Made by a program: the position numbers and the translations under genes
Notes under the pieces: model-generated
Seen by the model: the letters and a program-made list of their open reading frames with translations, nothing else
What the model was told of the DNA's origin: nothing
Databases searched by the model: none
Origin: Prochlorococcus sp. AG-355-I04
Lineage (GTDB): Bacteria; Cyanobacteriota; Cyanobacteriia; PCC-6307; Cyanobiaceae
Assembly: GCA_003280915.1 (NCBI GenBank)
Contig: QCDL01000001.1
Span: 124,001 to 188,000 of the forward strand
DNA: 64,000 nucleotides
Reading direction: 5' to 3'
Shown: positions 6,795 through 62,636 of the stretch, piece by piece
Position numbering within the stretch: position 1 is the first letter of the stretch
How the letters are laid out: each line of letters opens with the position of its first letter

Positions 6795-6972
6795 TGAAAA
6801 AGGGTTATTTTAATTAATCTAAATCGTGTTTGAAAAAACTGCGAATGCTATATTTTAATAAATTAAAGGCCCGTAATTTAACATCTATATTTACTTTTTT
6901 AATGTATTTAATACACTTTGAGTTATGTATAAGTTTAGAATAAATATAAATAAGAGTATTTGGCCTTAAATT

Positions 6973-8374: not shown

Positions 8375-9808
8375 ATGCTTAGAAGAGTAATAAATCCTAT
8401 CTTATTCTTGCCACTTACTCTAAGTATCAACACTTTTAATGTACTCTCGAGCGAAACAAAAAATTACATTGATAATGTTTTAGAAGAAAAATCAAATATT
8501 ACTTTTATTGATTATCAAGAAATAGAAAAACTAATCTTAAAAAATCAAGAATTAAAGTCATTACAAAACTTAGTAGCCTCTGCAAGCTTTAATCTTTCCA
8601 GCCAAATTGCCAAAAGATATCCATCCTTAGATTTTCAAGCCAATGGGTTACCAAAATATGTCGCAGGTAAAAAGTACAATAGCAAGTCGCCCACTTTAAA
8701 AACATCACAGTTGACGGCTAATCCCTCCTTGAATATAAAATGGGATATAATTGCCCCGCTTAGAGGTTCCGACATTAAAATTGCCAAAACAAATTACAAA
8801 ATTGCAGAAAATAATTATGAGATCAAGAAAAAAGATTTAATTCAAGAAGCAAGAATCAGGTATCACAAATATAAAAAGTCATATCAAGATATTCAAAATA
8901 AACAATTCACACTTGATTTATCAATTACAAGTTTAGAAAATGCTAAAGCGAAACTAGATGCTGGAATTGGTACAAAATTTGAAGTTCTTGAAGCAGAAGC
9001 TCAATTATCCCGAGATAAACAATCACTGAATGAAAAGAAAATAGAACATGAAATTAATAAAATTTCTCTTAAGGAGATTCTCAATCTCAAGGAGGATTTT
9101 GAAACTAATAAAAAACAAAATCTTGTAGGATTTTGGAATCATAAATTGAATAAGAATATTGATGAAGGTTTAGATAAAAACCTTTCCTTAAAAAACCTTA
9201 TTCTTCAAAAATCAATCAAAAAGAGCCAAGCAAATAGTTTTTTAGCTCAAAATAAGCCAAATATCTATATCAGCAATTCATTATCTAGTACATTTTCAAA
9301 GGGTGACTCTCTAGCGACTAATATCGATTCTGAAAAATCTGGATCTAATTATACAAATACAATAAGCCTAAATTTTGCATGGAATATTTTTGATGGTGGA
9401 CAAAATAAGAACTCTTTCAAATCAAAAATAGCAGATGCAGAAGCTGAAAAATATGCTTATGAAAATCTAAAAAATGTTTTGACCACAAATATTAGTAAAG
9501 CCTACTTAAATCTTAAATTAAATGAAGAGAAAATAATTTCTTCTCTTAAAGAAATTGAATCTAGCAAGGAGTCTGTAAGACTTTCCAGACTTAGATACGA
9601 TGTTGGAATATCAACTCTAAAAGATGTCCTTATTAGACAAAGTGAGCTTAGTAATGCGAGATCTAAAAATATTAATGCAATATTTAATTACAATCTGAAT
9701 TTAGATGAATTAGAAAGATTAACTTTTCTTGATATAAGTAAAAATTGTTTGGGGAGTAATAATACTAAAATTAAAGAAAAAGAATCTATTTGCAATATAC
9801 AAAGATGA
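8375..9808 (+). CDS. TolC-family outer membrane efflux protein
   Basis: An outer membrane channel protein of about 477 residues. A hydrophobic signal peptide (LRRVINPILFLPLTLSINTF) is followed by two halves of long amphipathic helices, each with a LSRDKQSLNEKK- or LSRLRYDVG-type OEP repeat and a beta segment (SLNFAWNIFDGG near residue 340). TolC trimers bridge inner membrane exporters to the outside. An in-frame TTG at 8342 would overlap the DUF512 gene, but the ATG at 8375 gives a cleaner signal peptide. The stop overlaps the next ATG (ATGA), indicating coupling to the IMPase gene. Confidence 0.88.
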   Translation: MLRRVINPILFLPLTLSINTFNVLSSETKNYIDNVLEEKSNITFIDYQEIEKLILKNQELKSLQNLVASASFNLSSQIAKRYPSLDFQANGLPKYVAGKKYNSKSPTLKTSQLTANPSLNIKWDIIAPLRGSDIKIAKTNYKIAENNYEIKKKDLIQEARIRYHKYKKSYQDIQNKQFTLDLSITSLENAKAKLDAGIGTKFEVLEAEAQLSRDKQSLNEKKIEHEINKISLKEILNLKEDFETNKKQNLVGFWNHKLNKNIDEGLDKNLSLKNLILQKSIKKSQANSFLAQNKPNIYISNSLSSTFSKGDSLATNIDSEKSGSNYTNTISLNFAWNIFDGGQNKNSFKSKIADAEAEKYAYENLKNVLTTNISKAYLNLKLNEEKIISSLKEIESSKESVRLSRLRYDVGISTLKDVLIRQSELSNARSKNINAIFNYNLNLDELERLTFLDISKNCLGSNNTKIKEKESICNIQR

Positions 9809-10605
9809 ATCCACCAAATTTAACTAAGAAGCAACTAAGTGAGTTAGATTCTTTATTCGAATTAGTTAGTCAACGACAAAAAAAAGATTTTGGAAATATT
9901 AACGCCAGTAATAAAGCAGATGGATCATTATTAACAAGTTGCGATTTATGGAGCGACAAAACAATCGTAGATGGCTTAGCTTCAATAGCTCCAGGTGAGG
10001 GCGTACTTAGTGAAGAAGGGCAAAAGTTAATTCCAAACTCAAAAGCTTATTGGGTGGTCGATCCACTCGATGGGACAACAAATTTTGCTGCCGGTATTCC
10101 ATACTGGTCTATATCAGTGGCAAGGTTCGTTAATGGTAAACCGCAATCTTCTTTTTTAATAATTCCTACATTGAAAAAAAAGTTTGTATCCATTAAAGGT
10201 AAAGGGGTTTGGTTAAATAACGAGAAAATAGATCCTAACCTCAATAATCATCAAAGTGAATGCATTTCTTTGTGCAGTAGATCAATAAAAATTTTACAAA
10301 AAAACCCAAACTCAGTTTTTCCTGGGAAAATCAGACTCTTAGGTGTATCGAGTTTAAATCTTACGAGTGTAGCAATGGGACAAACATTCGGAGCAATAGA
10401 ATCAACCCCTAAGATATGGGATATTGCAGCAGCTTGGTTGCTACTAGAAGAACTCAATTGTTCTATAAACTGGTTAGAAACAGATCCTTTAAATTTAGTT
10501 TCAGGAGAAGACTTGAGCAATGTTAATTTTCCATTAATTGCATGTAGATCAATAGAAAAAGTTGAAATTTTAAAGCCATGGGGAAATTTATTATTGGAAA
10601 AATAG
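9805..10605 (+). CDS. Inositol monophosphatase family phosphatase
   Basis: A 266-residue Mg2+-dependent sugar-phosphate phosphatase. The catalytic signatures are present: LSEEG with E70/E71, WVVDPLDGTTNF with D86, D89 and T91, and WDIAAAWLLLEE near 207-218. Length and motifs fit the IMPase superfamily, which covers inositol-1-phosphatase, histidinol-phosphatase and similar enzymes; the substrate cannot be told from sequence. The ATG at 9805 sits in an ATGA overlap with the TolC-like gene. An alternative upstream TTG at 9790 is less likely. Confidence 0.9.
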   Translation: MNPPNLTKKQLSELDSLFELVSQRQKKDFGNINASNKADGSLLTSCDLWSDKTIVDGLASIAPGEGVLSEEGQKLIPNSKAYWVVDPLDGTTNFAAGIPYWSISVARFVNGKPQSSFLIIPTLKKKFVSIKGKGVWLNNEKIDPNLNNHQSECISLCSRSIKILQKNPNSVFPGKIRLLGVSSLNLTSVAMGQTFGAIESTPKIWDIAAAWLLLEELNCSINWLETDPLNLVSGEDLSNVNFPLIACRSIEKVEILKPWGNLLLEK

Positions 10606-10696
10606 TTTCACCATAGATAAAAAATTGCTTGAAAAATTTCTTAATCAGATACAATAAAACATAAGTAAATAAATAAAATATTTGAATAAAATTAAT

Positions 10697-11605
10697 ATGC
10701 AGCGAAGTTCAACATGGATACTGAAAAGTTTATGGGGAGCTTGCGAGCGATGGAGCAAATCTGATTGTGTTGATTTAAGCGCTGCGTTTGCATATTACAC
10801 ACTCCAATCATTTTTCCCTATCCTTCTAATTTCTCTTTCAATAGCTTCATGGTTCCTAGGAAAACAAGAAGGATTAGATCAACAAATAATTGCTATTGCT
10901 GCTCAGCTTTTACCTCCTTCAGTAGTTGAGTTGGTAGAAACAACATTATTTAATTTAATAGATCAAGGATTTGGGGCAGGTATTCTCGGGGCTATGTTTT
11001 TGCTTTTTACAGCAGGAAATGCATATCTATCTCTTCAAAGAGGTTCAGATAGGCTTTGGGAAGATGAAATTCCTTCTAAAAAAGTAAATGCTGCTTGGAG
11101 AGTGCAAGCTTCGAGGTTTCTCAGAAATAGAGTTGAAGCCTTTTTAATAGTATTCTTTATTGGTTTTTTAATGGTACTAGATCAGATTAGTGCAAATCTT
11201 AGGATGATACCAAGTACAGTTTTAGAAAATATTTCAAAATCAAATAATCTTGTTTCTGATTTTTTAGTAAAGTTACCTCTATTACAAGTTGGTCAGTTTG
11301 CAATACCCTTAATCGGATTTTCTTTAATGGCTCTTTTATTACAAGCTCTCTTGCCCAGTAGAAAAGTTCCTTTAAAACCACTATTACCTGGATCTTTGCT
11401 TATTGGAATTGGCCTAACCACTTTGAATTTAGCGGTAAGTAAAAGTATTCTCTCACTTGGAGCAAGATTTCAAGCATATGGTTTTATTGGAGGTTTTCTT
11501 GTTCTTACCTTGTGGGTATGGCTATTAGGAGTGATTTTATATTTTGGACAGTGCTGGAGCGTAGTTATTGCTAGTATGACTTTATTAAATAAAAAAAGAA
11601 ATTAA
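10697..11605 (+). CDS. YihY/virulence factor BrkB family membrane protein
   Basis: About 302 residues with six predicted transmembrane helices. Family features are the DLSAAFAYYTLQSFFPILLI segment near the N-terminus and the GSLLIGIGLTTLN and FIGGFLVLTLWVWL segments near the C-terminus, typical of YihY/BrkB (formerly mis-called RNase BN). Its role, possibly transport, is unresolved. The ATG at 10697 follows a purine-poor leader; a TTG at 10682 in the same frame is an alternative. The next gene starts 17 bp after the stop. Confidence 0.85.
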   Translation: MQRSSTWILKSLWGACERWSKSDCVDLSAAFAYYTLQSFFPILLISLSIASWFLGKQEGLDQQIIAIAAQLLPPSVVELVETTLFNLIDQGFGAGILGAMFLLFTAGNAYLSLQRGSDRLWEDEIPSKKVNAAWRVQASRFLRNRVEAFLIVFFIGFLMVLDQISANLRMIPSTVLENISKSNNLVSDFLVKLPLLQVGQFAIPLIGFSLMALLLQALLPSRKVPLKPLLPGSLLIGIGLTTLNLAVSKSILSLGARFQAYGFIGGFLVLTLWVWLLGVILYFGQCWSVVIASMTLLNKKRN

Positions 11606-11622
11606 AGATAACAAAAACTAAG

Positions 11623-11964
11623 ATGAATTATTTTCTTAAAGCTAATAAAAATCTTCTTACTTACTCATTAATCCTACTTATAGTTATTCCAATTTTTGGA
11701 ATAAACTTTTTCATAAGCTTTATCGGTAATATACTGCTTCTATTATTTTTAATTCCTTTACTATTAATAATTTTAGTCTTTATGGGTTTTAACTTTTACA
11801 AATCAAAAATTAATACATGTAATAGTTGTGGTGCAATATCCTTAGGCTTAAGTGAAACCTGCATGAATTGTGGAGCAAATCTAGAAAATATCATTAATAA
11901 TAATCAATTCAATGAAAGGCCAGCTGAAAGTACCATTGAAGTGAAGGCTGAAGAAGTAAAGTAA
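11623..11964 (+). CDS. Small membrane protein with zinc ribbon
   Basis: A 113-residue protein. Residues 10-58 form two closely spaced hydrophobic helices. A zinc-ribbon-like pair, CNSCG (about 66-70) and CMNCG (about 82-86), follows, then an acidic tail. Four-cysteine ribbons of this spacing usually bind zinc and face the cytoplasm. It follows the YihY gene by 17 bp in the same direction. I do not recognise a named family. Confidence 0.7.
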   Translation: MNYFLKANKNLLTYSLILLIVIPIFGINFFISFIGNILLLLFLIPLLLIILVFMGFNFYKSKINTCNSCGAISLGLSETCMNCGANLENIINNNQFNERPAESTIEVKAEEVK

Positions 11965-11973
11965 AATAAAATA

Positions 11974-12120
11974 CTAACCTATTCCAATTTGTCTAAGAAT
12001 ACTTTGCCCAGTGATTAATTCAGTGCCAAGTCCAATCAAAATACCCATCATTGCCATACGGCCATTCCAGGTTTCTGCAAAATTTACGAAGCCAAATCTT
12101 GGTTCATTGTTATTATTCAT
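11974..12120 (-). CDS. High-light-inducible protein (Hli/ELIP-like)
   Basis: ATG at 12118-12120 (complement) opens a 48-residue frame. The peptide has the Hli core: RFGFVNFAETWNGRMAMMG (residues 8-26), containing the chlorophyll-binding ExxNGR-like stretch TWNGRMAM, followed by a hydrophobic helix ending LITGQSIL. Single-helix Hli proteins bind chlorophyll and carotenoid in thylakoids and protect photosystems under excess light. It converges on the zinc-ribbon protein gene, with nine bases between stops. Prochlorococcus typically has many hli copies. Confidence 0.92.
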   Translation of the reverse strand: MNNNNEPRFGFVNFAETWNGRMAMMGILIGLGTELITGQSILRQIGIG

Positions 12121-12189
12121 AATTAACTAGATCATCTATCAAATTATTTTAACGTTTTAAGGAAGAATTTATGATAAATAATATATTAT

Positions 12190-12573
12190 TTATTTAACAT
12201 GTCTTACACCATCTACAGGTCGATACTCATCTCCAGTTAATTCTTCATACACAATAGCTGGTAATCCTGTATCAAACATTGTTTGCAATGCCTCTTTTAA
12301 CATAGGATTCCAACCTCCAGTACTAACTTTTCCATGTCTAACAGTCCAATCCCAAGTCCCTTGAAGATCTCTGGGTAATCTACCTTCTCTATCTCTTCGA
12401 GCGACTAAGTCTAAAGATTCAACGAGACCAACAATAACTGGATTTTTACCATAAGAGGGAGTAAGACTTAGTTCAAGTCTAACTGGATCTTCTTTAACCA
12501 TTTTCAAACGAAACCTTGGTGGTAATTTAAGAGATCTTATTACCGATGAGACAATTTTTGTTCTTAATTCCAA
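12190..12573 (-). CDS. Conserved cyanobacterial protein of unknown function
   Basis: A 127-residue soluble protein rich in charged residues. It begins MELRTKIVSSVIRSLKLPPRF and contains RDREGRLPRDLQGTWDWTVRH (about 60-80). The many W, G and R residues suggest a conserved structural domain, but I cannot assign a family. It lies 24 bp downstream of the DUF2973-like gene on the same strand, so the two are probably an operon. No membrane segment or signal peptide is visible. Confidence 0.7.
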   Translation of the reverse strand: MELRTKIVSSVIRSLKLPPRFRLKMVKEDPVRLELSLTPSYGKNPVIVGLVESLDLVARRDREGRLPRDLQGTWDWTVRHGKVSTGGWNPMLKEALQTMFDTGLPAIVYEELTGDEYRPVDGVRHVK

Positions 12574-12597
12574 TTTCTTTCCTTAAATGTAATTTGA

Positions 12598-12864
12598 TTA
12601 ATCAGTTGTTGAACCTTTTTCTTCTAATGTAGAGTCATTGTCATTAGAAAATCTTACTGTTAACAGCTCCTCTTCTGTTATGTTTCCTGATTTATCTAGA
12701 AGTTCTGGATGTATTGTGTATTTTTTTTGTTTAAAACTGGGAGTACTAAAACGTTTCTTTTGATTATCAGATATACCCCAGCCATTAGACATTACTTTAA
12801 AAGCTTTCCAGACTAAATAGGTTAAGGCTGCTGAATATACGATCGGAAAAAGGATAGTCATCAA
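12598..12864 (-). CDS. DUF2973-like single-span membrane protein
   Basis: An 88-residue protein. It has an N-terminal helix (about residues 3-24, LFPIVYSAALTYLVWKAF) and a soluble tail containing TIHPELLDKSGNITEEELLTV (about 50-70). The HPELLD-x-x-G-x-(I/V)-(T/D)-x-E-x-L-L-x-V-R-F pattern is that of cyanobacterial DUF2973 proteins, whose role is unknown. A second ATG directly after the first leaves the start ambiguous by one residue. Likely co-transcribed with the downstream 127-residue protein. Confidence 0.65.
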   Translation of the reverse strand: MMTILFPIVYSAALTYLVWKAFKVMSNGWGISDNQKKRFSTPSFKQKKYTIHPELLDKSGNITEEELLTVRFSNDNDSTLEEKGSTTD

Positions 12865-13032
12865 ACTTATAAATTAATTTATTATTTATTTAATATCATA
12901 GCCCGAAAAAAAGAAATTTAGCTAATTTAAATTAATAATTTATTCTCTAGATTAAAATTATTTATTCATATAGTTATATTTTAATTACAATGATAGGGCG
13001 TATTGATTTTCCGAAATACATAAAAAACAAAA

Positions 13033-14154
13033 TTGACAAGATTCATCCAAAAACTAGTACTACTTGCCTCATTAACTACACTGAGTATTACATTACCTGC
13101 AAAGGAAATTTACCAACCATTAAGTAAACCAAAAATTAATGAGATTAATATATATTCAAAAAAATCTTTCATAACAAAAGCTGTTGAAAAAACCGGTCCA
13201 TCTGTAGTGACAATTGATACTCAAAGATACATTAAAAAAAGAAAATTTCCAAGCAATTCTCAACTATTTCTAGACCCATATTTTGAAAGATTTTTTGGAT
13301 TAGATTTACAAAATGACAACCGACCAAGAATAGAGCAAAACCAAGGGAGCGGATTTATATTTGCAGATGGACTTGTAATGACCAATGCTCATGTTGTGAA
13401 TGGATCAGATAAGGTGATTGTTGGTTTAACCAATGGCAAAAAATTAAACGCAAAACTTGTAGGGCAAGACTTCTTTACTGATTTAGCTGTGCTAAAAATT
13501 GAAGGAAAGGGACCTTGGCCAAAAGCAAAATTGGGCGATTCGGCAAAGATTAAAGTTGGTGATTGGGCTATAGCAGTTGGAAATCCATTCGGACTGGAAA
13601 ACACAGTTACTCTAGGTATTATTAGTAATCTAAATAGAAACGTCACTCAATTAGGAATATATGATAAAAAACTTGAACTGATACAAACAGACGCTGCTAT
13701 TAATCCTGGCAATTCTGGAGGTCCACTGTTGAATAGCGATGGAGAAGTAATTGGTATTAATACCTTGATTAGATCAGGCCCAGGGGCGGGTTTAAGTTTC
13801 GCAATCCCAATTAATAAAGCTAAGGAAATTTCGTATCAACTTTTAAAAAATGGAAAGGTAATACACCCTATGATTGGGATAAGCTTAATAGTAGAAAGTA
13901 ATTCTGAGAGAAAAGATAATGTCGTAAAAGTTGGATATATAGTACCTAACAGTCCAGCGGAAAAGAGTGGAATCAAAATAGATGATATTTTAATTAAAGT
14001 AGGCAATAAAGATATTAAAACTGCATCAGAAGTTATAGACCAAATAACTAGAAATGGTATCAAGAAACCAATCAATATATTATTAAAGCGTAAAAATAAA
14101 TTTATAAAATTAAAAGTAATACCCACTGATATAACTAATCTAGAAAATAGCTAA
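13033..14154 (+). CDS. HtrA/Deg-type trypsin-like serine protease with PDZ domain
   Basis: A 373-residue exported protease. A short hydrophobic signal peptide (residues 5-23) precedes a trypsin-like domain with the full triad: H120 in MTNAHVV, D150 in FFTDLAVLK and S228 in NPGNSGGPL. One PDZ domain (about 280-365) closes the protein. Such enzymes degrade damaged periplasmic or lumenal proteins. The only start giving an intact signal peptide is a TTG at 13033; the ATG at 12990 is in another frame. It is divergent from the DUF2973-like gene across about 170 bp. Confidence 0.93.
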   Translation: MTRFIQKLVLLASLTTLSITLPAKEIYQPLSKPKINEINIYSKKSFITKAVEKTGPSVVTIDTQRYIKKRKFPSNSQLFLDPYFERFFGLDLQNDNRPRIEQNQGSGFIFADGLVMTNAHVVNGSDKVIVGLTNGKKLNAKLVGQDFFTDLAVLKIEGKGPWPKAKLGDSAKIKVGDWAIAVGNPFGLENTVTLGIISNLNRNVTQLGIYDKKLELIQTDAAINPGNSGGPLLNSDGEVIGINTLIRSGPGAGLSFAIPINKAKEISYQLLKNGKVIHPMIGISLIVESNSERKDNVVKVGYIVPNSPAEKSGIKIDDILIKVGNKDIKTASEVIDQITRNGIKKPINILLKRKNKFIKLKVIPTDITNLENS

Positions 14155-14159
14155 AAAGT

Positions 14160-14303
14160 TTATTTATCATTCTGTTTAAGTATTTCCACACACCTAGAAA
14201 TACATCCACCATAATTAAGATCAAAAGTTGAAATGCATTCAAAATAACTTTCAATAAGATCAGAAATTAGAAACTGTTTTTCTTGAAAATCATAATTTTT
14301 CAT
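14160..14303 (-). CDS. Small conserved-looking protein, 47 residues
   Basis: ATG at 14301-14303 (complement) to a TAA at 14160-14162 encodes a 47-residue soluble peptide. It has four aromatic residues and three cysteines in the middle (YFECISTFDLNYGGCISRC). It fills the otherwise empty gap between the convergent HtrA gene and the upstream ABC-F gene; its stop lies five bases beyond the HtrA stop. I do not recognise a family. The composition looks coding rather than random AT-rich translation, but support is limited. Confidence 0.45.
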   Translation of the reverse strand: MKNYDFQEKQFLISDLIESYFECISTFDLNYGGCISRCVEILKQNDK

Positions 14304-14412
14304 ATAAATAATTTAAACTTATTTTACATTTTTTAGAGGCATCAAGGACGGTAAACTATGGAAATACAAAAAAGTGAACTTACTTAGCCAAATACACGGT
14401 TATTTAAAGAAA

Positions 14413-43381: not shown

Positions 43382-43644
43382 TATGAAAATAAAATTGAAG
43401 AAATGAAATGACTTAAAATAAAAAATTATTTGCCAAAGTATTCAACAAAATTTTTTAGTGATCAGAGGACATTTTTTACAATACAACCTAAAACGTTATA
43501 TATGTATAAATATTTGTTTTATGCAATAGAAAAATTATTCATCATATTCAAAAAAACTCTTTTTGAACTACATTCTTAATTCAGCCAATAATGTATGATA
43601 TTTTTAAGGTTTAAGCATCCCCCCCCTGCTGCTGAAAACCCTTT

Positions 43645-52535: not shown

Positions 52536-52599
52536 ATACGATAAAACTTAATGAAAAAAACTATTCAATAACCATTTTGCCTGTCAGAATATAAATGTC

Positions 52600-54275: not shown

Positions 54276-54947
54276 TTGTTCATTACCGTTTGCGGACAAA
54301 AAGGGGGTGTGGCCAAAACCTGCACAAGTATTCACCTTGCTAGTGTTTGGCATTCTGAAGGTAAAAAAGTTTGTATAGTCGATGCCGACAAGAATAGATC
54401 TGCTTTAGCATACGCATCAAGAGGCAATCTTCCATTTCCAGTTTTCCCCGTCAGTTCAGCTGCTAAAGCATCAAGATCATCAGAAATTGTAATAACTGAT
54501 GGCCAGGCTAGCAGTGATAAAGAAGAACTTAAACACTTAGCTTATGGTTCAGATTTAGTTATATTACCTACAACTGCAAAAGCAAGATCAGTCGAATTAA
54601 CTGTTGAACTAGCTAATTTATTAAGCAACTTAAAAGTTAACCATGCAGTAGTAATAGTAAAAGTTGATTTTAGACAGAAAAAAGCAGCGCAACAAGCAAA
54701 AGCAGCTCTAGAAAATTTTGGTTTGTATGTTTTTGATACATTTATACCCTTACTTTCAGCATTTGATAAAGCAGAAGCCTCGGGTAATGCTGTATTTGAA
54801 GCTGTAGACGATTTAGGTAGATCAGATCCTCGTCGAATGACGGGCTGGTCTGCTTATTGTTCAATTGCCTCACAAATTCCATGCCTGATTTCGAAGCCCT
54901 CATCCGACACCAACAACTTAAACAACCAACAACCAATCAGCGCTTAA
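54276..54947 (+). CDS. Orphan ParA/MinD-family ATPase
   Basis: A 223-residue deviant-Walker ATPase. The P-loop K9-G-G-V-A-K14-T has both lysines typical of ParA/Soj, and VDADKNRSAL (about 38-47) and VIVKVDFRQKKAA are switch regions. ParA proteins position DNA or protein cargo on the nucleoid. There is no parB in the window; the only neighbour is the membrane protein overlapping its end. The start is TTG (no in-frame ATG near the P-loop). Residues after 200 are Ser/Asn-rich and poorly conserved. Confidence 0.88.
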   Translation: MFITVCGQKGGVAKTCTSIHLASVWHSEGKKVCIVDADKNRSALAYASRGNLPFPVFPVSSAAKASRSSEIVITDGQASSDKEELKHLAYGSDLVILPTTAKARSVELTVELANLLSNLKVNHAVVIVKVDFRQKKAAQQAKAALENFGLYVFDTFIPLLSAFDKAEASGNAVFEAVDDLGRSDPRRMTGWSAYCSIASQIPCLISKPSSDTNNLNNQQPISA

Positions 54948-55123
54948 AAGTAGTTGATTCTCCTAATTTTGAAGCAGAAAAAAACGAAAAAGCAATAATT
55001 AGACGATCTGGATTATTAGTTAATTTTTTTGGAGGTTTTATAGGCTCTGTAATTGGAACTTTAACAATACTGTTTCTTTATATGAATGAATATCTACCAT
55101 TAGAATTACTAAAACTAAAATAG
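54881..55123 (+). CDS. Small membrane protein coupled to ParA
   Basis: An 80-residue protein. The first 50 residues are polar (MPDFEALIRHQQLKQPTTNQ at the start). A glycine-containing transmembrane helix follows (about 47-71, LLVNFFGGFIGSVIGTLTIL). The ATG lies inside the parA-like gene, giving a 67 bp overlap, so it is translationally linked and may tether the ParA to the membrane. Its stop TAG (55121-55123) overlaps the first argJ-end-like core repeat by one base. Confidence 0.6.
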   Translation: MPDFEALIRHQQLKQPTTNQRLKVVDSPNFEAEKNEKAIIRRSGLLVNFFGGFIGSVIGTLTILFLYMNEYLPLELLKLK

Positions 55124-55148
55124 TATATTCGCTATTAATTTCCACCTA
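55123..55148. repeat. Core repeat copy 1, eroded argJ 3' end
   Basis: GTATATTCGCTATT at 55123-55136, extended to the right by AATTTCCAC, which has two differences from the argJ copy. In reverse the segment reads V-E-I-N-S-E-Y-T, as at the end of ArgJ (VEINSEYTT), but without a stop codon at the expected place. It abuts the small membrane protein's stop and is probably the original attachment-site half. Confidence 0.75.
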
Positions 55149-55157
55149 GGGCAAATA

Positions 55158-55332
55158 GTATATACACCTTGCTGTAATCAATTGCTATCACTTAGGTTAA
55201 TTTTTAAAAATAATGACACCATAATCACAGTCGGGCAAATAATAATCACAGTTTTAGATTTTTAAATAAAAACCATTGAAATAATTAGGATTAATTTCTG
55301 TGATCTTAAACGTAATCACAGAATAATCACAT
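55158..55332. repeat. Left-end ATCACAG repeats of cassette A
   Basis: ATCACAG occurs at 55224, 55245 and 55315, with ATCACAT at 55326 and an inverted copy CTGTGAT at 55298. Copies at 55298 and 55315 form a perfect inverted repeat TCTGTGAT-N10-ATCACAGA. Spacings of 21 and 11 bp put sites on the same DNA face. Further left, ATATACACCTTG (55160-55171) is inverted relative to CAAGGTGTGTAT at 56786-56797 (11 of 12). The rest of the 375 bp gap up to 55498 holds no gene and ends in an AT-rich promoter-like leader. Confidence 0.75.
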
Positions 55333-55498
55333 TTCTATAAAAAGTGAGTATTCAGCACTGAGAAGGGAGATAGAAATTTCTTATTACTTTTTTTCCTAGA
55401 TAAAACAACAAATAATTAAGATTTTCAGGATTTTATAAGTAAAAATACTTATTAAAACAAGTATTTTTATATGATCCTTTGAATAAAACTTTTTTAAA

Positions 55499-56746
55499 AT
55501 GAAAAAAATAACCAAAAATCTCTTTCATACTTTTATTGCATCATCTATAGTTTTCTCCCCTTTTACCTCAACAAAAGCAGATACTATTGATACAATTACA
55601 AGAGCATTTTCATATGCAGTTGCAGAAGATCCAACTAAAACAATTAGTGGTGGCGGTTCCCAAATAAATATTTATAAAATTGATAGCACTGGTGCAGCAT
55701 CATTGGTAGTTGAAAATCTTTACCCAGATGGCGGACCAGGAACTTTTAGTGCAGATCAATATGCCATAGATTCTGCTGAAGGAAAGATTTACTTTAGAGA
55801 ACCGCCAAGGGGTGGAGGCCTTCCATTACGTGCAAGAGTGTTTGATATTAAAACAGAAACTCTGGCAGATGATTGGGTAACTATTACTGGAATGCCAGAT
55901 GGAGCAATGCCTATATTCGTTACTATGCCTACTGCTACAAAAGATCAAATTAATAAACAGTGTGAATCTGATGATGGAACTACTTGTAACGCTAATTCAA
56001 ATGAAATAACACTTGGAGGAACTGGCACGGACGAATTAATGAAAGTTGATGCAAATGGAATAAGCACTGGGGGAACTTCCGGAAAAAGTTTAGTTAAATA
56101 TGTTGGAGATGAATTACATATTGGACAAAACTCATGGATAACAAAAGAAGAGAATGGGAGGCAGAAAGTATATGCAAAAGATGCTGCAGGCAAACCAATT
56201 CCAATCGACTACACTAACGGAACTAAATTACTGATTAATGGAAGAGATGTAGAACAATCAATTAATAATGTAGGAGCATTAAGTGCTGCTTTAACTGGAT
56301 TACCAACAGTTCCTACAGATACAACTCTTGCTTGCGGTTTAGGAAGTGGAACTCACGGAGGAAATTTTGCATTATCAGGTGGTTGCGCTTCGAAAGTCAA
56401 CGATCAATTATCAATTAACTATGCGGCATCTATGACTATTCCAGGTCAAGATTATGCTGGTGATTTTGAAGATACTTTCTCTGCAAGAGCAGGATTTGTT
56501 TGGAAATTAGGAAAGTCAGTTAAACCCACTTTGATAAGTATGAAAGAAAAAGAAAAAATGGAAGAAAAAATTTACTCTCTTGAAGAAAACAACAAAAAAA
56601 TTATTTCCCAAAATACAGACTTAAAACAAAAAAATCAATCAATAATTTCTCAAAATAAAGAACTTTTAGCAAGACTAGAAAGACTAGAAAAAATAGCACT
56701 TGGAGAGTCTAAATCAAAAGATTTAGCAACTATAAAACTGCCATAA
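55499..56746 (+). CDS. Exported YadA-anchor-like surface protein with C-terminal coiled coil
   Basis: A 415-residue secreted protein. The signal peptide covers residues 1-27 (cleavage near KA/DT). Residues 30-250 are G, T, D-rich beta structure. Residues 252-338 (INNVGALSAALTGLPTVP, then the GSGTHGGNFALSGGCASKV and INYAASMT strands and ARAGFVWKLGK) match a trimeric-autotransporter membrane anchor. Unlike textbook YadA, where the anchor ends the protein, a 50-residue coiled coil (about 348-400, with two ISQN repeats) follows. Possible role: cell-surface adhesin or recognition protein. It is the only gene of cassette A, and its codon use looks richer in G and C than its neighbours. Confidence 0.7.
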   Translation: MKKITKNLFHTFIASSIVFSPFTSTKADTIDTITRAFSYAVAEDPTKTISGGGSQINIYKIDSTGAASLVVENLYPDGGPGTFSADQYAIDSAEGKIYFREPPRGGGLPLRARVFDIKTETLADDWVTITGMPDGAMPIFVTMPTATKDQINKQCESDDGTTCNANSNEITLGGTGTDELMKVDANGISTGGTSGKSLVKYVGDELHIGQNSWITKEENGRQKVYAKDAAGKPIPIDYTNGTKLLINGRDVEQSINNVGALSAALTGLPTVPTDTTLACGLGSGTHGGNFALSGGCASKVNDQLSINYAASMTIPGQDYAGDFEDTFSARAGFVWKLGKSVKPTLISMKEKEKMEEKIYSLEENNKKIISQNTDLKQKNQSIISQNKELLARLERLEKIALGESKSKDLATIKLP

Positions 56747-56755
56747 TTTAGAAGA

Positions 56756-56797
56756 AATAATAATCACAGTATTATCACAGTCGCACAAGGTGTGTAT
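56756..56797. repeat. Right-end ATCACAG repeats of cassette A
   Basis: ATCACAG at 56763 and 56774, 11 bp apart. AATAATAATCACAGT at 56756-56770 is identical to 55238-55252, and ATTATCACAGTCG at 56771-56783 matches 55221-55233 at 12 of 13 bases. CAAGGTGTGTAT at 56786-56797 is the inverted partner of the left-end ATATACACCTTG. The repeats lie 60 to 100 bp inside the second core copy. Confidence 0.75.
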
Positions 56798-56853
56798 TCT
56801 TTTTGGAATTTTATATAGTCATATCAAACGATCCCAGAAATCGCAAAAACTAC

Positions 56854-56873
56854 GTCGTATATTCGCTATTGAT
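56854..56873. repeat. Core repeat copy 2 with argJ-like stop
   Basis: GTATATTCGCTATT at 56857-56870. Read in reverse, the segment gives N-S-E-Y-T-T and a TAG. The 17 bases GTCGTATATTCGCTATT (56854-56870) are identical to the argJ terminus at 61402-61418. It separates cassettes A and B. Confidence 0.8.
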
Positions 56874-56890
56874 ACATATATAAATCCAAA

Positions 56891-57008
56891 TCCATTGGTA
56901 TCACTGGACTCTGACTTCTAAAATTAGTGTTATATAGGTGTTACAAACCTTTCTCCACAGGGTCAAACCAATTGGTATCACTAAATTAGCGTTATAAAAG
57001 TGCTACAA
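56891..57008. repeat. Left-end repeats of cassette B
   Basis: Two direct copies of a compound repeat. TTGGTATCACT occurs with one change at 56895-56905 (ATTGGTATCACTG) and at 56972-56982. Each is followed by AAATTAG and then GTTATA-N5-G(T/C)TACA at 56929-56945 and 56991-57007. The first copy has a 14 bp insertion between its two halves. The rest of the gap from 56747 to 57057 holds no gene. Confidence 0.75.
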
Positions 57009-57057
57009 CAACATGAAATTAAATATTATTTAGCGTCAGTTATCTTTATTTAATTAA

Positions 57058-57291
57058 TTATTCTTTGTTATCAATATCTTCTAATAATGTTGAATCAAAT
57101 AATTCAATAATCTTACCTTCGTCGTTAACTAATCTATGAGCAGTATGTGTTGCAAAATATTTATTTACTCCATAATTAATTGCTGTTGAATAATCATAAA
57201 AAGTATCTAATCTTTTCCATTCACCATTAATAGTCAACATTTCAAGGTGCACTTTATTTTTTTCAAAAAATTCTTTATCAGGTACTTTCAT
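57058..57291 (-). CDS. Unknown small protein, 77 residues (cassette B)
   Basis: A soluble acidic protein of alternating beta/alpha character (HLEMLTINGEWKRLDTFYDY, then AINYGVNKYFATHTAHRLV). Its ATG overlaps the stop of the upstream 50-residue gene (ATGA), so the pair is translationally coupled. No family is recognised. Two short overlapping genes beside a large effector-like gene could be accessory or toxin-antitoxin-like components, but nothing in the sequence proves it. Confidence 0.6.
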   Translation of the reverse strand: MKVPDKEFFEKNKVHLEMLTINGEWKRLDTFYDYSTAINYGVNKYFATHTAHRLVNDEGKIIELFDSTLLEDIDNKE

Positions 57292-57440
57292 TTCTTAAAT
57301 AAATCTTGAATGACATAAATATCCTCTGCGTTTGGATATTTTTGTTTAAAGACGCTTATCGCACTATTTGGCGAAATAGCAAATAAATTTATTTTGATCC
57401 TGTATGAATCAACTAAACCTGATATCAAATATTTTTTCAT
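57288..57440 (-). CDS. Unknown small protein, 50 residues (cassette B)
   Basis: The frame opens at 57473, but the ATG at 57438-57440 (MKKYLISGLVDSYRIKINLF) is the better start. The product is a beta-alpha-beta-like peptide containing FAISPNSAISVFKQKYPNAED, a pattern seen in small domains that contact a partner's edge strand. Overlaps the next ATG by four bases. No family recognised. It is divergent from the secreted TPR gene, 86 bp between starts. Confidence 0.5.
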   Translation of the reverse strand: MKKYLISGLVDSYRIKINLFAISPNSAISVFKQKYPNAEDIYVIQDLFKK

Positions 57441-57526
57441 GTTTAAATAATTTAGAGATAAGCCCAATAGCATTATTCTGCATCTGCTCTAAATTAAATA
57501 AATAAGATCTTTATATTTTTTGAAGT

Positions 57527-58285
57527 ATGAAAATCAATCCTTATTTAATTGCTTGCACCTTAGCAATAGCACCATGCACATTTTTACAAAAACTAGAAGC
57601 AAAAAATATATCAGTCAATATAGATCAGATTGATAAATCAAATAAATTAGAAGAAGAGGGTGCAAAGAAATGGCGTGCAAAAGATAATCATGGCGCAATT
57701 AAAGACTATACAGAGGCATTAGAATTAAACCCTAAAAATATTGGCGCATTATTTGGAAGAGCATATTCAAAATGGGAATTAAAAGACTATGAAGGTGCCC
57801 ATTCGGATTTTAATAAAATCTTAAAAACAGAACCTGATAAGATTCATCTTTATACCCTACATAATCTTTCATTACTAAATTTCGAAACAAAAAATTTTAA
57901 AGAGGGAATAGAAGTAACGACAAAATTAATATCACAAAACTTTCAACTAAATAATTCTTACACAAATAGAGGTCTTTACAAAGAAAAATTAGGCAATGCA
58001 AAAGGAGCATGCGCTGATTATCGAAAAGGGAGTGAAAATGGAAATGATATAGCAACTTTACGAGTAAAAGAAAGTTGTGAACCAAGTTTATTTAAAGCAT
58101 TTGAGAAAAAAACTAAAAATAATATGTTGATGAATAGGGCAAGAGAAAAATATGCTTTAGGAGATGGGAGAGGTTCTTGTGAGGATTATGAATTAGCGAA
58201 AAGTAATGGTTTTATTCCACCAAAAAAACATAGACTATTTTATAAGGTATTTACAGAACCTTACTGTTTTTTAAGGACGATTTAA
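57527..58285 (+). CDS. Exported TPR-repeat protein (cassette B)
   Basis: A 252-residue protein. A signal peptide (LIACTLAIAPCTFLQKLEA, about 5-23) precedes three TPR-like units (about 40-170): AKKWRAKDNHGAIKDYTEAL, then ALFGRAYSKWELKDYEGAHS and YTNRGLYKEKLGNAKGACADY. The C-terminal part (about 175-252) includes GDGRGSCEDYELAKSNG, a degenerate repeat. TPRs bind partner proteins. The location is probably periplasmic or lumenal. Convergent with the 962-residue fusion gene, whose own C-terminus also carries TPRs, so the two may interact. Confidence 0.75.
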   Translation: MKINPYLIACTLAIAPCTFLQKLEAKNISVNIDQIDKSNKLEEEGAKKWRAKDNHGAIKDYTEALELNPKNIGALFGRAYSKWELKDYEGAHSDFNKILKTEPDKIHLYTLHNLSLLNFETKNFKEGIEVTTKLISQNFQLNNSYTNRGLYKEKLGNAKGACADYRKGSENGNDIATLRVKESCEPSLFKAFEKKTKNNMLMNRAREKYALGDGRGSCEDYELAKSNGFIPPKKHRLFYKVFTEPYCFLRTI

Positions 58286-58332
58286 ATAAATATTTCTTGC
58301 GAAATCTTTTTTAAAATATCTTTATAGTTTGA

Positions 58333-61221
58333 TTAATCCTCAAGATATTTTTTAATTAATTGTTTAATATCATCAGATATCGGTTCTGATGGTGGGTATT
58401 CCTTTAATAGTTTTTTTGCTTGCTCGATATCATACCCTTGCCCCTTTGTATCGCCTATAGAATCTTTCATTCTGAATCTGGTTAAATAGTTTAAAAAGTT
58501 TTTAGGATCGAGTTTAATTGCTTGATTTAAATCTTCCAAAGCATTTTGAAAATTCTCAAAATAGTAAAACAATAAAATACCCCTTAGTGCATAACATTTT
58601 GAATTTTTTGGGTTCCTCTTCAAAGAAAGATTAAAATCATTTAAAGAATCTTGAATAAGTCCTAATTCCATTTTTAAAAAACCCCTATTTGCGAGCAAAG
58701 AAGGATCTTCTGGACTATATTTCAAACCCAAATCATAATATTTAAGAGCACTATTTTTATCACCAATAAAAAACATAATTAAGCCTAAATTATTATAAGC
58801 ACCTGGAAAAGATGGATCTAATTTAATTACATTGAGATAATCATTTATTGCTCCTTGTTTATCGTCAAGTGCTTCTTTTATCTTTGCTCTATAGAAAAAA
58901 GAAACATGAGAATTAGGATCATAATCGATAATTTGATTAAATCTCGATAAGGCTTCTTTATATTTTTTATCAATAAACTCTTGTATTCCTGAATTAATAA
59001 AACTAATTATCTCTTCTGACTTTTGATCTTGTGAAATCTCTACTCCTGTGAAGTGTTCAATTGCAATTCCAAAATTAATTCCAGTTTCAATTTGAATATC
59101 TTTTCTAGGGTCCAGAAATACTCCTAAATTTATACCAACTATTTGACCATTTGAGTTAAGAACAGGTCCTCCGCTTGAACCAAATCTTGTAGGGTTGTTA
59201 TAGATAAGAATATTGCCATCTTTTGAGGAGTTAGTCCTACCCATTAATTTACCGGGATAAAGTAAATGAGTTTGTTTAAGAATATCAGAATAACCTGAAA
59301 TCCAAATATCATTTCCTTGATTTAAAAGTGATGAGTCACCAATAGATGCATTTAAATAATTATTTTGAGATATAAATTCTAAAGATGCTAAATCAAGATC
59401 ACCAAATAAACGAATACTATGTTTATCAACGATATAAACAATATTATCAATTTCAGTTCTGACTAAAATATCCTCCTTGAAATCATGATTTTGAATTACA
59501 TGTCTAGCAGTTAAAACTGTATGTATATTATTCTTGCTTTTGATTAATACTCCAGTACCTGAAGAATTACCTGAAAGAGTTTGTATCGCCACCGTAATTG
59601 ATTTAGAAATACTATGAATATCTTTTTCATCTCTGGCCTGATTAGGATCACTTTTACTTAAAAAATAATCTGCAAGTTCTTTTGCTTGCACAAAGTTTTT
59701 TCTTTTTGGGTGATTTTTAAGTGGATATGGACCTTTCTCATCAAAAAATTCAGCAATATAATCTGCTAGCAGATTCGGATCTGTAAGAAGTTTACGATAT
59801 GCTTTAATTTGCTGCTTAAGTTTTAAGACTTCATCTTCAGTATTTTTTAACTTGTCATTTATTTGTTTATAAGAATTATTTTTAATAAATAAATCTGCTG
59901 CTATTTTTGCATCCTGTAGATTCAATTTTGATTGATAATCGTTTATGGGATAAGGACCATCTTTTCCAAAAAAACTTAATACATATTCTGATAAAACATC
60001 AGGATTCGTTAAAATTTCTTCCCAGGATTTATGTTCTTTTGACATTTCCTGTAATAAAGATACTGCTTCTGTTAATTTCTCTTTTGTTTCTCGATAAGTT
60101 TCTTTTAATTGCTCATTATCCTTTATTGAATCTTCATCAATTCTTTCCTTACCAAAAAATTGTTCATAATATTCCTTTAGGAGTTGCGGGTCAGAAAGAA
60201 TTTCTGCATACGATTCACTGCGAGACCTTAACTCTTGAATAGATGTATTAAGTGAATTTATTGTTTCTTCATCATCAATATTATCTTGACTTTTTTTTTC
60301 ATTATTTAACTTTTCCAAAGACTCTTCCATAACTCTAATTCTCTCCTTTGCCTCTGTTAATTCTTTATTGTTTTCTAAATTGGATAGAGGATCAAATTGC
60401 CCTTTGTTAGTATTTCCATTTGCGATAGCGTATTGATTTGAATAGGCACAATTATTACAACTTTTATTGGGTAATGGAATTCTTAATTGATTCATCAAAT
60501 CAATCATTTCATTAACTTTTGGATCAATCCATTTCATGCTCCAGTGATAAGGAATCAAATATTCATCAAATTCCATTTGTCCATAAAATCCATCTTTACT
60601 TCTTTTCGCATTACAAACCAAAAAATAAGCAGTATCTTTAACCTTGAAACCCATATTGGTTAATAGATAAGCATAAAAATCCATTTGGATTTTATATCCC
60701 TCATGATAAGGATCTTCCAAATACTCTTTTTGCTCAACATATCCTCCCTTCGCCTGAGATTTATAATCAACAACTATCAGTTCATTGGTATTGAGGTCAA
60801 TCCAAACATCATCTATACCACCAGTCAAAATTATATTTGAATTCTTATATCTAACTTGTAAACCTGCGCTTAGTGAGTTTCTCCATTTATCAATATCCTT
60901 ATGATTAAAAGGTATTACATGATTTAATCCAAACTTAGAGAATAATCTATGGGGAATCTTTTTTTTTCTACAATCATCAAACTCTTTTTTAAGCAAAAAG
61001 TCTGTAGTTTCATTGAGACTCCAACCAGGTGTACCTGGAGGTTTTAAACCTATTACCCTATCAAGATAAAAGCACCTTGGACATGACAAAAAGTCTGAAA
61101 ACCTACCTCTACTAATTTTAAAATCTCCCTTTTGATTAGGTCTATAAATTGATGATTCTCTAGTTCTCTTTCCTTTTGCCTCGACTAATTGCTTCTTCGA
61201 ATTACGGTCTAAATCAATCAT
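58333..61221 (-). CDS. PD-(D/E)XK nuclease / trypsin-like protease / TPR fusion protein
   Basis: A 962-residue multidomain protein. Residues 35-262 form a Cas4/RecB-like PD-(D/E)XK nuclease: acidic residues in GGIDDVW (134-140), VDYK (D152, K154) and Q179-x3-Y183, with cysteine pairs C47/C50 and C255/C258 that could hold an Fe-S cluster. A coiled-coil region (285-525) carries three repeats of the type (D/N)PxLLxxYxxxFF at 344, 406 and 481, the last two followed by GPYP. A trypsin-like protease (about 540-725) has H574 (TARHV), D610 (DLASL) and S683 (GSSGGPV). Four or so TPRs (735-940) end it. No signal peptide, so probably cytoplasmic. I know no described system with this exact order; defence is an inference. 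Confidence 0.85.
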   Translation of the reverse strand: MIDLDRNSKKQLVEAKGKRTRESSIYRPNQKGDFKISRGRFSDFLSCPRCFYLDRVIGLKPPGTPGWSLNETTDFLLKKEFDDCRKKKIPHRLFSKFGLNHVIPFNHKDIDKWRNSLSAGLQVRYKNSNIILTGGIDDVWIDLNTNELIVVDYKSQAKGGYVEQKEYLEDPYHEGYKIQMDFYAYLLTNMGFKVKDTAYFLVCNAKRSKDGFYGQMEFDEYLIPYHWSMKWIDPKVNEMIDLMNQLRIPLPNKSCNNCAYSNQYAIANGNTNKGQFDPLSNLENNKELTEAKERIRVMEESLEKLNNEKKSQDNIDDEETINSLNTSIQELRSRSESYAEILSDPQLLKEYYEQFFGKERIDEDSIKDNEQLKETYRETKEKLTEAVSLLQEMSKEHKSWEEILTNPDVLSEYVLSFFGKDGPYPINDYQSKLNLQDAKIAADLFIKNNSYKQINDKLKNTEDEVLKLKQQIKAYRKLLTDPNLLADYIAEFFDEKGPYPLKNHPKRKNFVQAKELADYFLSKSDPNQARDEKDIHSISKSITVAIQTLSGNSSGTGVLIKSKNNIHTVLTARHVIQNHDFKEDILVRTEIDNIVYIVDKHSIRLFGDLDLASLEFISQNNYLNASIGDSSLLNQGNDIWISGYSDILKQTHLLYPGKLMGRTNSSKDGNILIYNNPTRFGSSGGPVLNSNGQIVGINLGVFLDPRKDIQIETGINFGIAIEHFTGVEISQDQKSEEIISFINSGIQEFIDKKYKEALSRFNQIIDYDPNSHVSFFYRAKIKEALDDKQGAINDYLNVIKLDPSFPGAYNNLGLIMFFIGDKNSALKYYDLGLKYSPEDPSLLANRGFLKMELGLIQDSLNDFNLSLKRNPKNSKCYALRGILLFYYFENFQNALEDLNQAIKLDPKNFLNYLTRFRMKDSIGDTKGQGYDIEQAKKLLKEYPPSEPISDDIKQLIKKYLED

Positions 61222-61335
61222 TTCTTACGAAGAAGTTCTACAAAATATCTTATCATTGCAAAATTATTTAAAAAAAATTGTTTGATCTTTTACCCAAATA
61301 ACTAAAAGTTTTCTAATTTTATGTGGAAATCCAGG

Positions 61336-61369
61336 GTTATAACATAGTTACATATAATTTAGATCACTG
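61336..61369. repeat. Right-end repeats of cassette B
   Basis: GTTATA-N5-GTTACA at 61336-61352, with the same spacing as the two left-end copies, and ATCACTG at 61363-61369 followed by AAATCGACT, resembling the left-end ATCACTGGACTCTGACT. They lie 35 to 70 bp inside the third core copy. Confidence 0.65.
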
Positions 61370-61397
61370 AAATCGACTGTCCTGCAATGGATTTAAA

Positions 61398-62636
61398 TCA
61401 AGTCGTATATTCGCTATTTATTTCAACATACTTTTTAGAAAGATCGCACCCCCAAGCTGTACCTTTCGATTCGCCAGAATTTAGATTAATCACAATTTTT
61501 ACAATATCATCCACTAAATATCTCCCTTTCATTCTGGACTTAATATAATCTGCAACTTTTTGTGGATCATATTTATTTAACTTGCCGTTTTCCAAAATCT
61601 GAGCGTTTCCTATATACAAGTCAACGTCATGAAGATTAAATTTAACTCCAGAATTACCAGCAGCAGAAATGATTCGTCCCCAATTCGGATCACAACCATG
61701 TATCGCAGTTTTTACCAAGGCAGAATTACAAATAGATTTCGCGAGCATAATTGCATCATCTGTATTTTTTGCTCCTTGAACCAAAACTTCTAATAAACAA
61801 TTTGCTCCCTCTCCATCCCTTGCGATATTTTTTGCCAAGTTTTGACATACAATATCAATCCCTTGTTGGATAATTGGAAAAAACCTTTTTTCAATTTTCT
61901 CTCCTGCATTTATTGCAACAAAAGAATCATTTGTGCTTGTCTCTCCATCAACTGATATTGCATTAAAAGATTTTTTAACTGCAATAGCAATCATTTTGTC
62001 CCATTCTTCTTTTTGAATGCCCGCATCACAGGTTAGAAAAGCAAGCATTGTAGCCATATTGGGGTAAATCATTCCTGAACCTTTTGCAAATCCTGCTATT
62101 TTTATTTTTCTACCTTTAATAATCGTCTCTATTGACACTTTTTTCAAAGTCAAATCGGTAGTTAAAATTGCTTCTGCTGCATTTTGAAAATTTTTACCCT
62201 TTAAATCATTAACTAAATTCGGTAAATTTTTTACTAAATCATTTATTTGTATTGGAACACCAATCACACCAGTCGAGCACATTAAAACTTCTTCTTCTTT
62301 TATTCCTAAAAGTTCCGCAATCTTTCCTGTAGCAATTTGAAAATGTTGAACACCAAGATTTCCCGTACAAGCATTAGCTTGACCAGAATTAATTAATATT
62401 GCCCTTACAAAACCTGAAGTTATTTTAATCCTTTCCTCACAAATATCCACACAAGAAGCGCGAACTATTGATTGGGTAAACATCCCACTAAAAACACTTC
62501 CTTCTGGAGCGAGTATTAGTGCTAAATCTTTTTTATTAGAAGCTTTTAAACCAGCAGATATCCCAGCAAAAAGAAACCCCTTTGGTGTTACCTTTCTGTC
62601 ATCAACAAACGACCAATTGGAATCTGGCTGGCTCAA
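61398..62636 (-). CDS. argJ: Glutamate N-acetyltransferase / amino-acid acetyltransferase ArgJ
   Basis: A 412-residue bifunctional arginine-pathway enzyme that transfers acetyl groups from N-acetylornithine to glutamate. It is made as a precursor that cleaves itself before T196 in PNMATMLAF (A195/T196), and oxyanion residues lie in CSTGVIG (120-126); DGEGANCLLEV and the C-terminal DLSKKYVEINSEYTT are family features. The last residues (NSEYTT) are encoded by the core repeat shared with two downstream sites, so the gene end appears to be an integration site that is restored on each insertion. Divergent from coaE. Confidence 0.95.
   Translation of the reverse strand: MSQPDSNWSFVDDRKVTPKGFLFAGISAGLKASNKKDLALILAPEGSVFSGMFTQSIVRASCVDICEERIKITSGFVRAILINSGQANACTGNLGVQHFQIATGKIAELLGIKEEEVLMCSTGVIGVPIQINDLVKNLPNLVNDLKGKNFQNAAEAILTTDLTLKKVSIETIIKGRKIKIAGFAKGSGMIYPNMATMLAFLTCDAGIQKEEWDKMIAIAVKKSFNAISVDGETSTNDSFVAINAGEKIEKRFFPIIQQGIDIVCQNLAKNIARDGEGANCLLEVLVQGAKNTDDAIMLAKSICNSALVKTAIHGCDPNWGRIISAAGNSGVKFNLHDVDLYIGNAQILENGKLNKYDPQKVADYIKSRMKGRYLVDDIVKIVINLNSGESKGTAWGCDLSKKYVEINSEYTT
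61401..61424. repeat. Core repeat copy 3, the 3' end of argJ
   Basis: GTATATTCGCTATT at 61405-61418 lies inside argJ and in reverse encodes N-S-E-Y-T before the last Thr and TGA (61398-61400). It is the live member of the three core copies. Confidence 0.85.

Follow-up and report, generated by a model that had tools for sequence, protein, structure and literature searches.

The window, a stretch of 64,000 nucleotides from Prochlorococcus sp. AG-355-I04, contains argJ (412 aa) on the minus strand at 61398–62636 and, on the plus strand, a parA-like gene (54276–54947) and the ORF of a small ParA partner (54857–55123). The parA-like gene is a conserved flank of the site by comparison across relatives. 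A 14-bp core, GTATATTCGCTATT, is present in three exact direct copies, assigned to the minus strand and read on the argJ strand as AATAGCGAATATAC: copy 1 at 55123–55136, overlapped by the stop codon of the ParA partner ORF, copy 2 at 56857–56870, and copy 3 at 61405–61418. The copies bound two cassettes, a distal one of 1720 bp (55137–56856, end class B) and a proximal one of 4534 bp (56871–61404, end class A), neither assigned a strand. Copy 3 forms the proximal junction between argJ and the proximal cassette, and the last 7 argJ bases (61398–61404) fall on the cassette side of it; copy 2 forms the internal junction. Copies 2 and 3 share an identical stretch of 17 bp (GTCGTATATTCGCTATT), and the minus strand of both encodes NSEYTT-stop (at copy 2 together with 56850–56856), which bears out the match of copy 2 to the ArgJ end that had been described for this DNA. 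No RNA genes were called at the block by ARAGORN, whose only calls in the window were a tRNA-Leu at 43644 and a tmRNA at 52571. The target is a protein-coding gene, as proposed earlier.

The proximal cassette carries four ORFs. A 962-aa protein (58333–61221, minus strand) combines a PD-(D/E)XK nuclease, a trypsin-like protease, and TPR (Pfam). The RT-Protease and Cas4 models of PADLOC matched only its protease and nuclease parts, and because these matches were partial, a defence role of the protein is a guess. The others are a 252-aa TPR protein (57527–58285, plus strand; 87% identical relatives in L057 and L066) and two minus-strand ORFs without a Pfam family, of 61 aa (57288–57473; relatives in L010, L033, L057, L066, and L075) and 77 aa (57058–57291; relatives in L057 and L066, and a similar ORF in L179 by eye). 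In the distal cassette, a 415-aa protein (55499–56746, plus strand) had a weak C-terminal match to the YadA anchor (Pfam, E 6e-4, below Pfam's cut-off). Ten proteins scanned at other loci included Z1-domain, DUF4379, HNH, methyltransferase, DnaB-like, CobO-like, and PEBP proteins. No conjugation genes were found among the cargo proteins scanned, and defence and surface roles of the cargo remain guesses. No recombinase domain was found by Pfam, PF00589 included, in the proteins of the window block, in line with the earlier claim that no recombinase is present locally.

The core was searched for in the whole genome of the window (G000, 1,559,003 bases), and with up to one mismatch allowed, no match was found beyond the three copies at the argJ site. 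Matches to the ends of the cassettes elsewhere in the genome were short only (up to 34 bases). In shuffled windows, core matches with up to two mismatches averaged 0.62, and three or more were obtained in 6 of 100 shuffles; all three matches in the real window are exact. The exact core was present in 79 of 115 genus genomes, against 3 hits for a reversed control pattern. At least two exact copies occurred in 19 of the 115 (list read by eye), spaced within about 8 kb except in G042, whose copies are 22 kb apart and on both strands. The core together with the ArgJ ending was found in 13 of 201 family genomes, all of them in the genus of the window (1 of 40 genera). A chance repeat was ruled out by the three exact copies, their uniqueness in the genome, and the control-pattern counts. 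That the core might be a common scattered motif, named in the preliminary description as a refutation of its reading, was ruled out by the counts in the genus and family genomes. In G042 (L124 and L125), argJ and its cores face the opposite way and lie about 21 kb from the distal core and the ParA partner. This arrangement reflects either an inversion that has one breakpoint within the argJ array or a faulty assembly.

Relatives were compared at the 80 loci with the best tblastn matches to argJ, which belong to Prochlorococcus or near kin and are thus close relatives, not a random sample. The site was empty in 38, where the small ParA partner directly follows argJ, and filled in another 38, where the insert was at least 146 bp; the window was added as a 39th filled site. 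The remaining four were cut by contig ends and left undetermined, two of them (L012 and L063) with cargo-like matches and no far flank. The empty sites, which had been asked for as a check, rule out a conserved syntenic block. Occupancy was scattered on a tree of the flanks (L077 omitted, its flank being too short), with 24 changes against a mean of 25.6 in shuffles, 159 of 500 of which were as low. That the same spot is empty or holds other cassettes in relatives points to a site of fast gene swapping.

NSEYTT-stop is encoded at all 38 empty sites and at all 39 proximal junctions of filled sites, where the threonine codons and the stop vary and are supplied by the cassette. At the internal junctions, which end no gene, exact NSEYTT-stop was retained in 12 of 18; the junctions in L008 and L078 and the second one in L035 could be distal junctions that have been displaced, and with these excluded, the count is 11 of 15. 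Distal junctions had it in 20 of 39, and L013, L035, L078, and L082 had no distal core at the expected position. By this comparison, the attP of each element would be the core AATAGCGAATATAC with NACNTRR after it, so that insertion would replace the last two argJ codons and the stop with a synonymous copy and leave the convergent ParA partner intact. The window would then hold two such elements in tandem, both without a recombinase. Site-specific integration at the gene end, the central claim made earlier, is upheld by the empty and filled sites, the restored NSEYTT-stop, and the confinement of the core to the site.

Copy 1 had been taken for an eroded restored argJ terminus. Its reading, V-E-I-N-S-E-Y-T without an ArgJ stop, was reproduced, and decay as the cause was not: the left flank of copy 1 corresponds to the chromosome-side sequence of the empty site, which is TACTTAAG in most relatives and TATTTTAG in the window. 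In this chromosomal half the ArgJ stop is lost, and the opposite strand still codes the LLKLK-stop of the small ParA partner. The stretch read as VEI (GGTGGAAATT) is the usual end of its cassette class. Judged by the empty sites, copy 1 is the old chromosomal junction (a putative attR), where a cassette end meets the former chromosomal terminus.

In the 38 filled relatives, the cores delimit 52 units (a 23-bp false unit in L008 omitted): one in 25 loci, two in 12, and three in a single locus. Core-to-core length ranged from 142 to 9043 bp with a median of 1688 bp, and 47 of the 52 units were no longer than 3 kb. Two extra genomes held longer arrays, with four cores and three cassettes in L122 and five cores (one with a mismatch) and four cassettes, including a 185-bp unit (6800–6985), in L123. 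Minimal cassettes of 142–274 bp core to core were seen in L026, L083, L009, the second unit of L035, and L123 (6800–6985); by analogy, they may be little more than attachment ends, like MITEs in an integrase system. In L071, the distal cassette of the window stands alone (92% identical), and in L073 it has a counterpart in distal position (88%). Segments of the proximal cassette are found again in L057, there distal, and in L066, there proximal. Since the two occur apart in these relatives, they are separate units, and their description as two tandem cassettes holds.

The order of the two insertions, previously considered undecidable, can be argued from relatives. L010, L017, and L032 (strain MIT 9314), a supported clade on the flank tree, share one distal cassette (98–99%) and carry three different proximal cassettes. 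On the simplest reading of this trio, newer cassettes seem to enter next to argJ, and under such a rule the distal cassette of the window would be the older one; the inference rests on that one trio.

Each cassette class has its own short repeat near both ends, TGTGATTA in class B and GTGTTATA in class A. In the distal cassette of the window, class B repeats on the minus strand lie at 55211–55250 (copies at 55211, with one mismatch, 55222, and 55243; spacings 11 and 21 bp), at 55313–55331 (two copies spaced 11 bp), and, at the other end, at 56761–56779 (11 bp apart, the second with one mismatch). The proximal cassette has arm-like class A repeats at 56927–56945 on the plus strand (11 bp apart, the first exact, the second with one mismatch) and at its argJ-side end (61334–61345, no strand assigned, one mismatch each). 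The class A repeat was defined from other class A units; in the window it is exact once and otherwise mismatched, and it was omitted by the automatic repeat listing. Exact 7-mer pairs spaced 11 bp apart numbered 136 in 14,350 bp of terminal sequence versus 12 in 54,775 bp of interior, and 1.5 in shuffled cassette ends; a spacing of 32 bp was also raised, and one of 21 bp was only twofold over the interior. The count was based on 41 of 47 units after removal of near-copies, with several members of one class remaining; in one count, units above 600 bp numbered 46. The 11-bp-phased repeats near both ends meet the criterion of arm-type repeats flanking the core in a lambda-type attP. By analogy with lambda-type integrases, they are inferred to be integrase arm sites, for which there are no binding data.

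It is also conceivable that the cassettes are immobile, decayed relics, long without an integrase, and that homologous recombination of the argJ–parA flanks is now their sole means of spread. The window units lack a recombinase, distal cores have decayed, and frequent homologous recombination would likewise scatter occupancy on the tree. Set against these points, L010, L017, and L032 have closely related flanks with different proximal cassettes over a shared distal one, the phased end repeats have been kept, and the spare argJ ends are exact at 12 of 18 internal junctions; the relic explanation is regarded as unlikely. The argJ 3' end is preferred here as a real integration hotspot, apparently active, with stacked recombinase-less cassettes.

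The position of the exchange was examined through codon variants in the core. The ArgJ serine is TCG or TCA in 6 of 38 empty hosts. Among filled loci, L026, L057, and L068 had the host TCN codon at the proximal junction, L015, L033, L037, L066, and L083 had it at the distal one, and no locus had it at both. A staggered exchange with a heteroduplex overlap of 6–8 bp would predict such reciprocal placement; the argument is based on these 8 loci. Position 9 of the core was G in 10 of 39 proximal and 3 of 18 internal cores and in none of 38 empty or 27 distal cores (proximal versus empty, Fisher p 0.001), and since this G is absent from empty and distal cores, position 9 seems not to be part of the overlap. 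The position-9 counts omit distal cores that had over two mismatches; the TCN comparison kept all 39 distal rows, several of which are not recognisable cores (e.g., L013, L035, L078, and L082). The overlap is accordingly given only as an inference without biochemical data, 6–8 bp long and bounded to about core positions 1–8. An inverted arm pattern, TAnGTnG, was seen on both sides of the core, with the unshifted register scoring best and all scores below zero.

Serine recombinases exchange strands across a 2-bp overlap. A serine recombinase as the enzyme behind the insertions is suggested by a Resolvase family match in L035 and a 179-aa ORF in L156 that is resolvase-like by eye. The TCN codon (core positions 3–6) is found on one or the other side of the exchange depending on the locus, so the overlap would be wider than 2 bp; the L037 element encodes a tyrosine recombinase; and when 124 cargo ORFs were searched by phmmer with the serine recombinase of L035, only the query itself was recovered. 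This alternative is therefore held to be very unlikely. Judged from the codon pattern, a tyrosine recombinase fits the exchange, and a 2-bp serine exchange fits less well.

In G000, which is 99.93% complete, a single PF00589 match was obtained at E 0.001, a chromosomal gene of 389 aa (G000:C3:57642), and one resolvase-type match lies elsewhere than the block. The 389-aa gene (L084, G000:C3) adjoins ORFs resembling ferrochelatase, CobO, and PyrH by eye. An integron-like cassette array, of which small stacked cassettes with the newest apparently beside a fixed gene are reminiscent, is considered extremely improbable: no integron integrase was found in G000, where the sole PF00589 match is this 389-aa protein (not compared directly with IntI), and both ends of the cassettes show inverted core arms together with phased repeats. 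A further candidate is the 389-aa recombinase itself, which could mobilise the cassettes much as happens with Xer-dependent elements. No other PF00589 match was obtained in this nearly complete genome, and 97 of 100 genus genomes have such a match, with a frame of about 389 aa in many among the matches listed (by eye). The end repeats differ between cassette classes, which argues for several integrases rather than this one enzyme, and recombinase-bearing elements occupy the argJ site itself; action of the 389-aa enzyme is thus judged quite unlikely.

Tyrosine recombinases at argJ were found in the 9-kb element of L037 and in the 6.5-kb element of L035, where the protein is below Pfam's cut-off and a clear PHROG integrase. 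A third, in L156 (G068), is the first ORF after argJ and is 58% identical to that of L035; the same locus has the 179-aa ORF mentioned above. No further tyrosine recombinase was detected among the 124 cargo ORFs with a profile of four such proteins, including the 389-aa gene. A structure model of the L035 recombinase had a mean pLDDT of 40 and was left unused.

The two window elements would depend for their movement on tyrosine integrases supplied in trans by related elements that use the argJ site, such as those of L035, L037, and L156. Trans action is plausible because attachment ends are shared between L035 or L156 and recombinase-less cassettes: the L073 cassette matches the end of the L035 element at 56 of 60 bases, and a start motif, AAAGTGTGATTTAT, is common to L026, L073, and L156. 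A recombinase is present in only 2 of the 38 filled loci of the best-80 set (L035 and L037), so the case for this step comes from the ends and repeats and not from an enzyme at the same locus. The end repeats of recombinase-bearing L035 and L156 are TGTGATTT, those of class B TGTGATTA, and no recombinase-bearing element with class A or class B repeats was found. Mobilisation in trans, already implied in the preliminary description, has thus gained recombinase-bearing elements at the site and shared ends, and is the most likely route for the window cassettes, inferred and not demonstrated. Excision, circles, and transfer were not observed, and the route between cells is likewise an inference.

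A phage origin, or packaging as a phage satellite in helper virions, gained no support from the searches made. The core with the ArgJ end had no match in IMG/VR viral contigs (exact pattern only), and the 415-aa protein had none in viral contigs. The recombinase searches were negative too: that of L035 in phage records, and those of L035 and L156 in viral contigs, the latter a weak search with two peptide patterns only.

The site, its empty and filled states, the synonymous restoration, the independence of the units, the phased end repeats, and the recombinase-bearing elements at the same argJ site are established by sequence comparison. On this basis, the argJ 3' end is proposed to serve as an attB for integrative elements of Prochlorococcus, and the whole model, including tyrosine integrases acting in trans, is regarded as highly likely.

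A second site of this kind may lie at a flavodiiron-like gene (identity by eye, without a family search). The L157 element (8820–14391), which contains a tyrosine recombinase, a ParB-methyltransferase relative, and a 219-aa protein, sits between two flavodiiron-like genes, and its far end repeats the 3' end of the first gene, AAAGTTGCTAATCACTAT, with 3 mismatches (4 in L159, 3 in L161). These three loci were met through their recombinases and hence give no information on frequency. In 15 relatives matching the end of the flavodiiron-like gene, the two genes were 20–21 bp apart in 10; the other five comprised gaps of 307 (the genome of the window), 640, and 1352 bp and two that could not be determined. 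The L035 element at argJ has a ParB-methyltransferase related to that of L157 (33%). From the flavodiiron-like site and this related protein, protein-gene ends seem to have been used as sites more than once here.

A broader proposal, which could equally well prove right or wrong, is that protein-gene 3' ends (argJ, the flavodiiron-like gene, and perhaps more) are communal docking sites. A few integrase elements would circulate several tiny recombinase-less families with arm repeats of their own, some of only 142–274 bp; these would stack last-in beside argJ and exchange genes related to defence or the cell surface at a pace that the lineage tree cannot follow. If right, this would explain, by a mechanism open to laboratory tests, how single flexible genes are exchanged quickly outside tRNA islands in a very abundant ocean phototroph. 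The attP sites, which combine a single core with several sets of repeats, would form a natural series for studies of divergence in integrase specificity and of the persistence of elements that lack a recombinase.

No report of an argJ integration site was found in the literature, which was available mostly as titles and abstract openings, the original tycheposon description being outside the scope. In E. coli, phage 21 and e14 at icd restore the 3' coding end of a metabolic gene; they are single prophages with their own integrase, whereas stacks of small recombinase-less cassettes are found at argJ. By analogy, the argJ array is best filed under tandem accretion at an integrase site, as in the cis-mobilizable elements (CIMEs) that accrete in tandem at ICE/IME sites according to the accessible part of PMC5704250. 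One of the CIME criteria holds for the window block, which is flanked by attL and attR without integration or transfer genes. Compared with what that part of the source covers, the argJ units are small (median about 1.7 kb), the proteins scanned lack conjugation genes, the phased repeats are kept, and the site is filled in 38 of 80 relatives (PMC5704250). As to a CIME-like origin by ICE/IME decay, an end is shared between L073 and L035 (56 of 60 bases), and no ICE ancestor was seen.

Islands at ssrA in Dehalococcoides, several in tandem at the gene 3' end and some with an integration module, resemble the argJ array in being stacked at one 3' end with and without that module, as far as they are described in the accessible part of PMC3146451; they differ in having a tmRNA target and a serine recombinase, as opposed to a protein gene and tyrosine recombinases (PMC3146451). 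Tycheposons, given in the accessible part of PMC10872708 as elements of 4–200 kb at seven tRNA genes with a tyrosine recombinase, share with the argJ elements their occurrence in Prochlorococcus, the carriage of cargo, and the type of recombinase in those argJ relatives that have one. On the same partial description, the tRNA-target criterion is unmet, argJ not being a tRNA gene and the block having no tRNA, and size differs, 47 of 52 argJ units being no longer than 3 kb (PMC10872708). The recombinase criterion is unmet as well, with no PF00589 in the window block and its presence in L035, L037, and L156. An additive flexible genomic island in Methylopumilus, with multiple tRNA-Lys ends as its markers, is similar in that repeated gene ends mark stacked insertions; it differs in its tRNA target, and no cassette-level att anatomy is described for it in the part of PMC10872708 that was accessible.

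Some further features were noted around these elements. In L154, L155, L159, and L162, the region about 11 kb upstream of argJ contains a tyrosine recombinase gene or a remnant of one, and in L159 this recombinase is the one at the flavodiiron-like site. A tandem repeat whose period is 69 bp (17 overlapping copies listed) is located at L162:17408–18811, near the recombinase remnant of G111. HUH-like motifs were seen by eye in the 219-aa protein of the L157 element (FHSHLYL; L157:11315–11974, plus strand) and at L035:13532–14377 on the minus strand (YHSHLIL; no Pfam or PHROG match). The 307-bp gap between the flavodiiron-like genes in the window's own genome (G000:C13, after 2530) contains TTGAAA repeats 11 bp apart.
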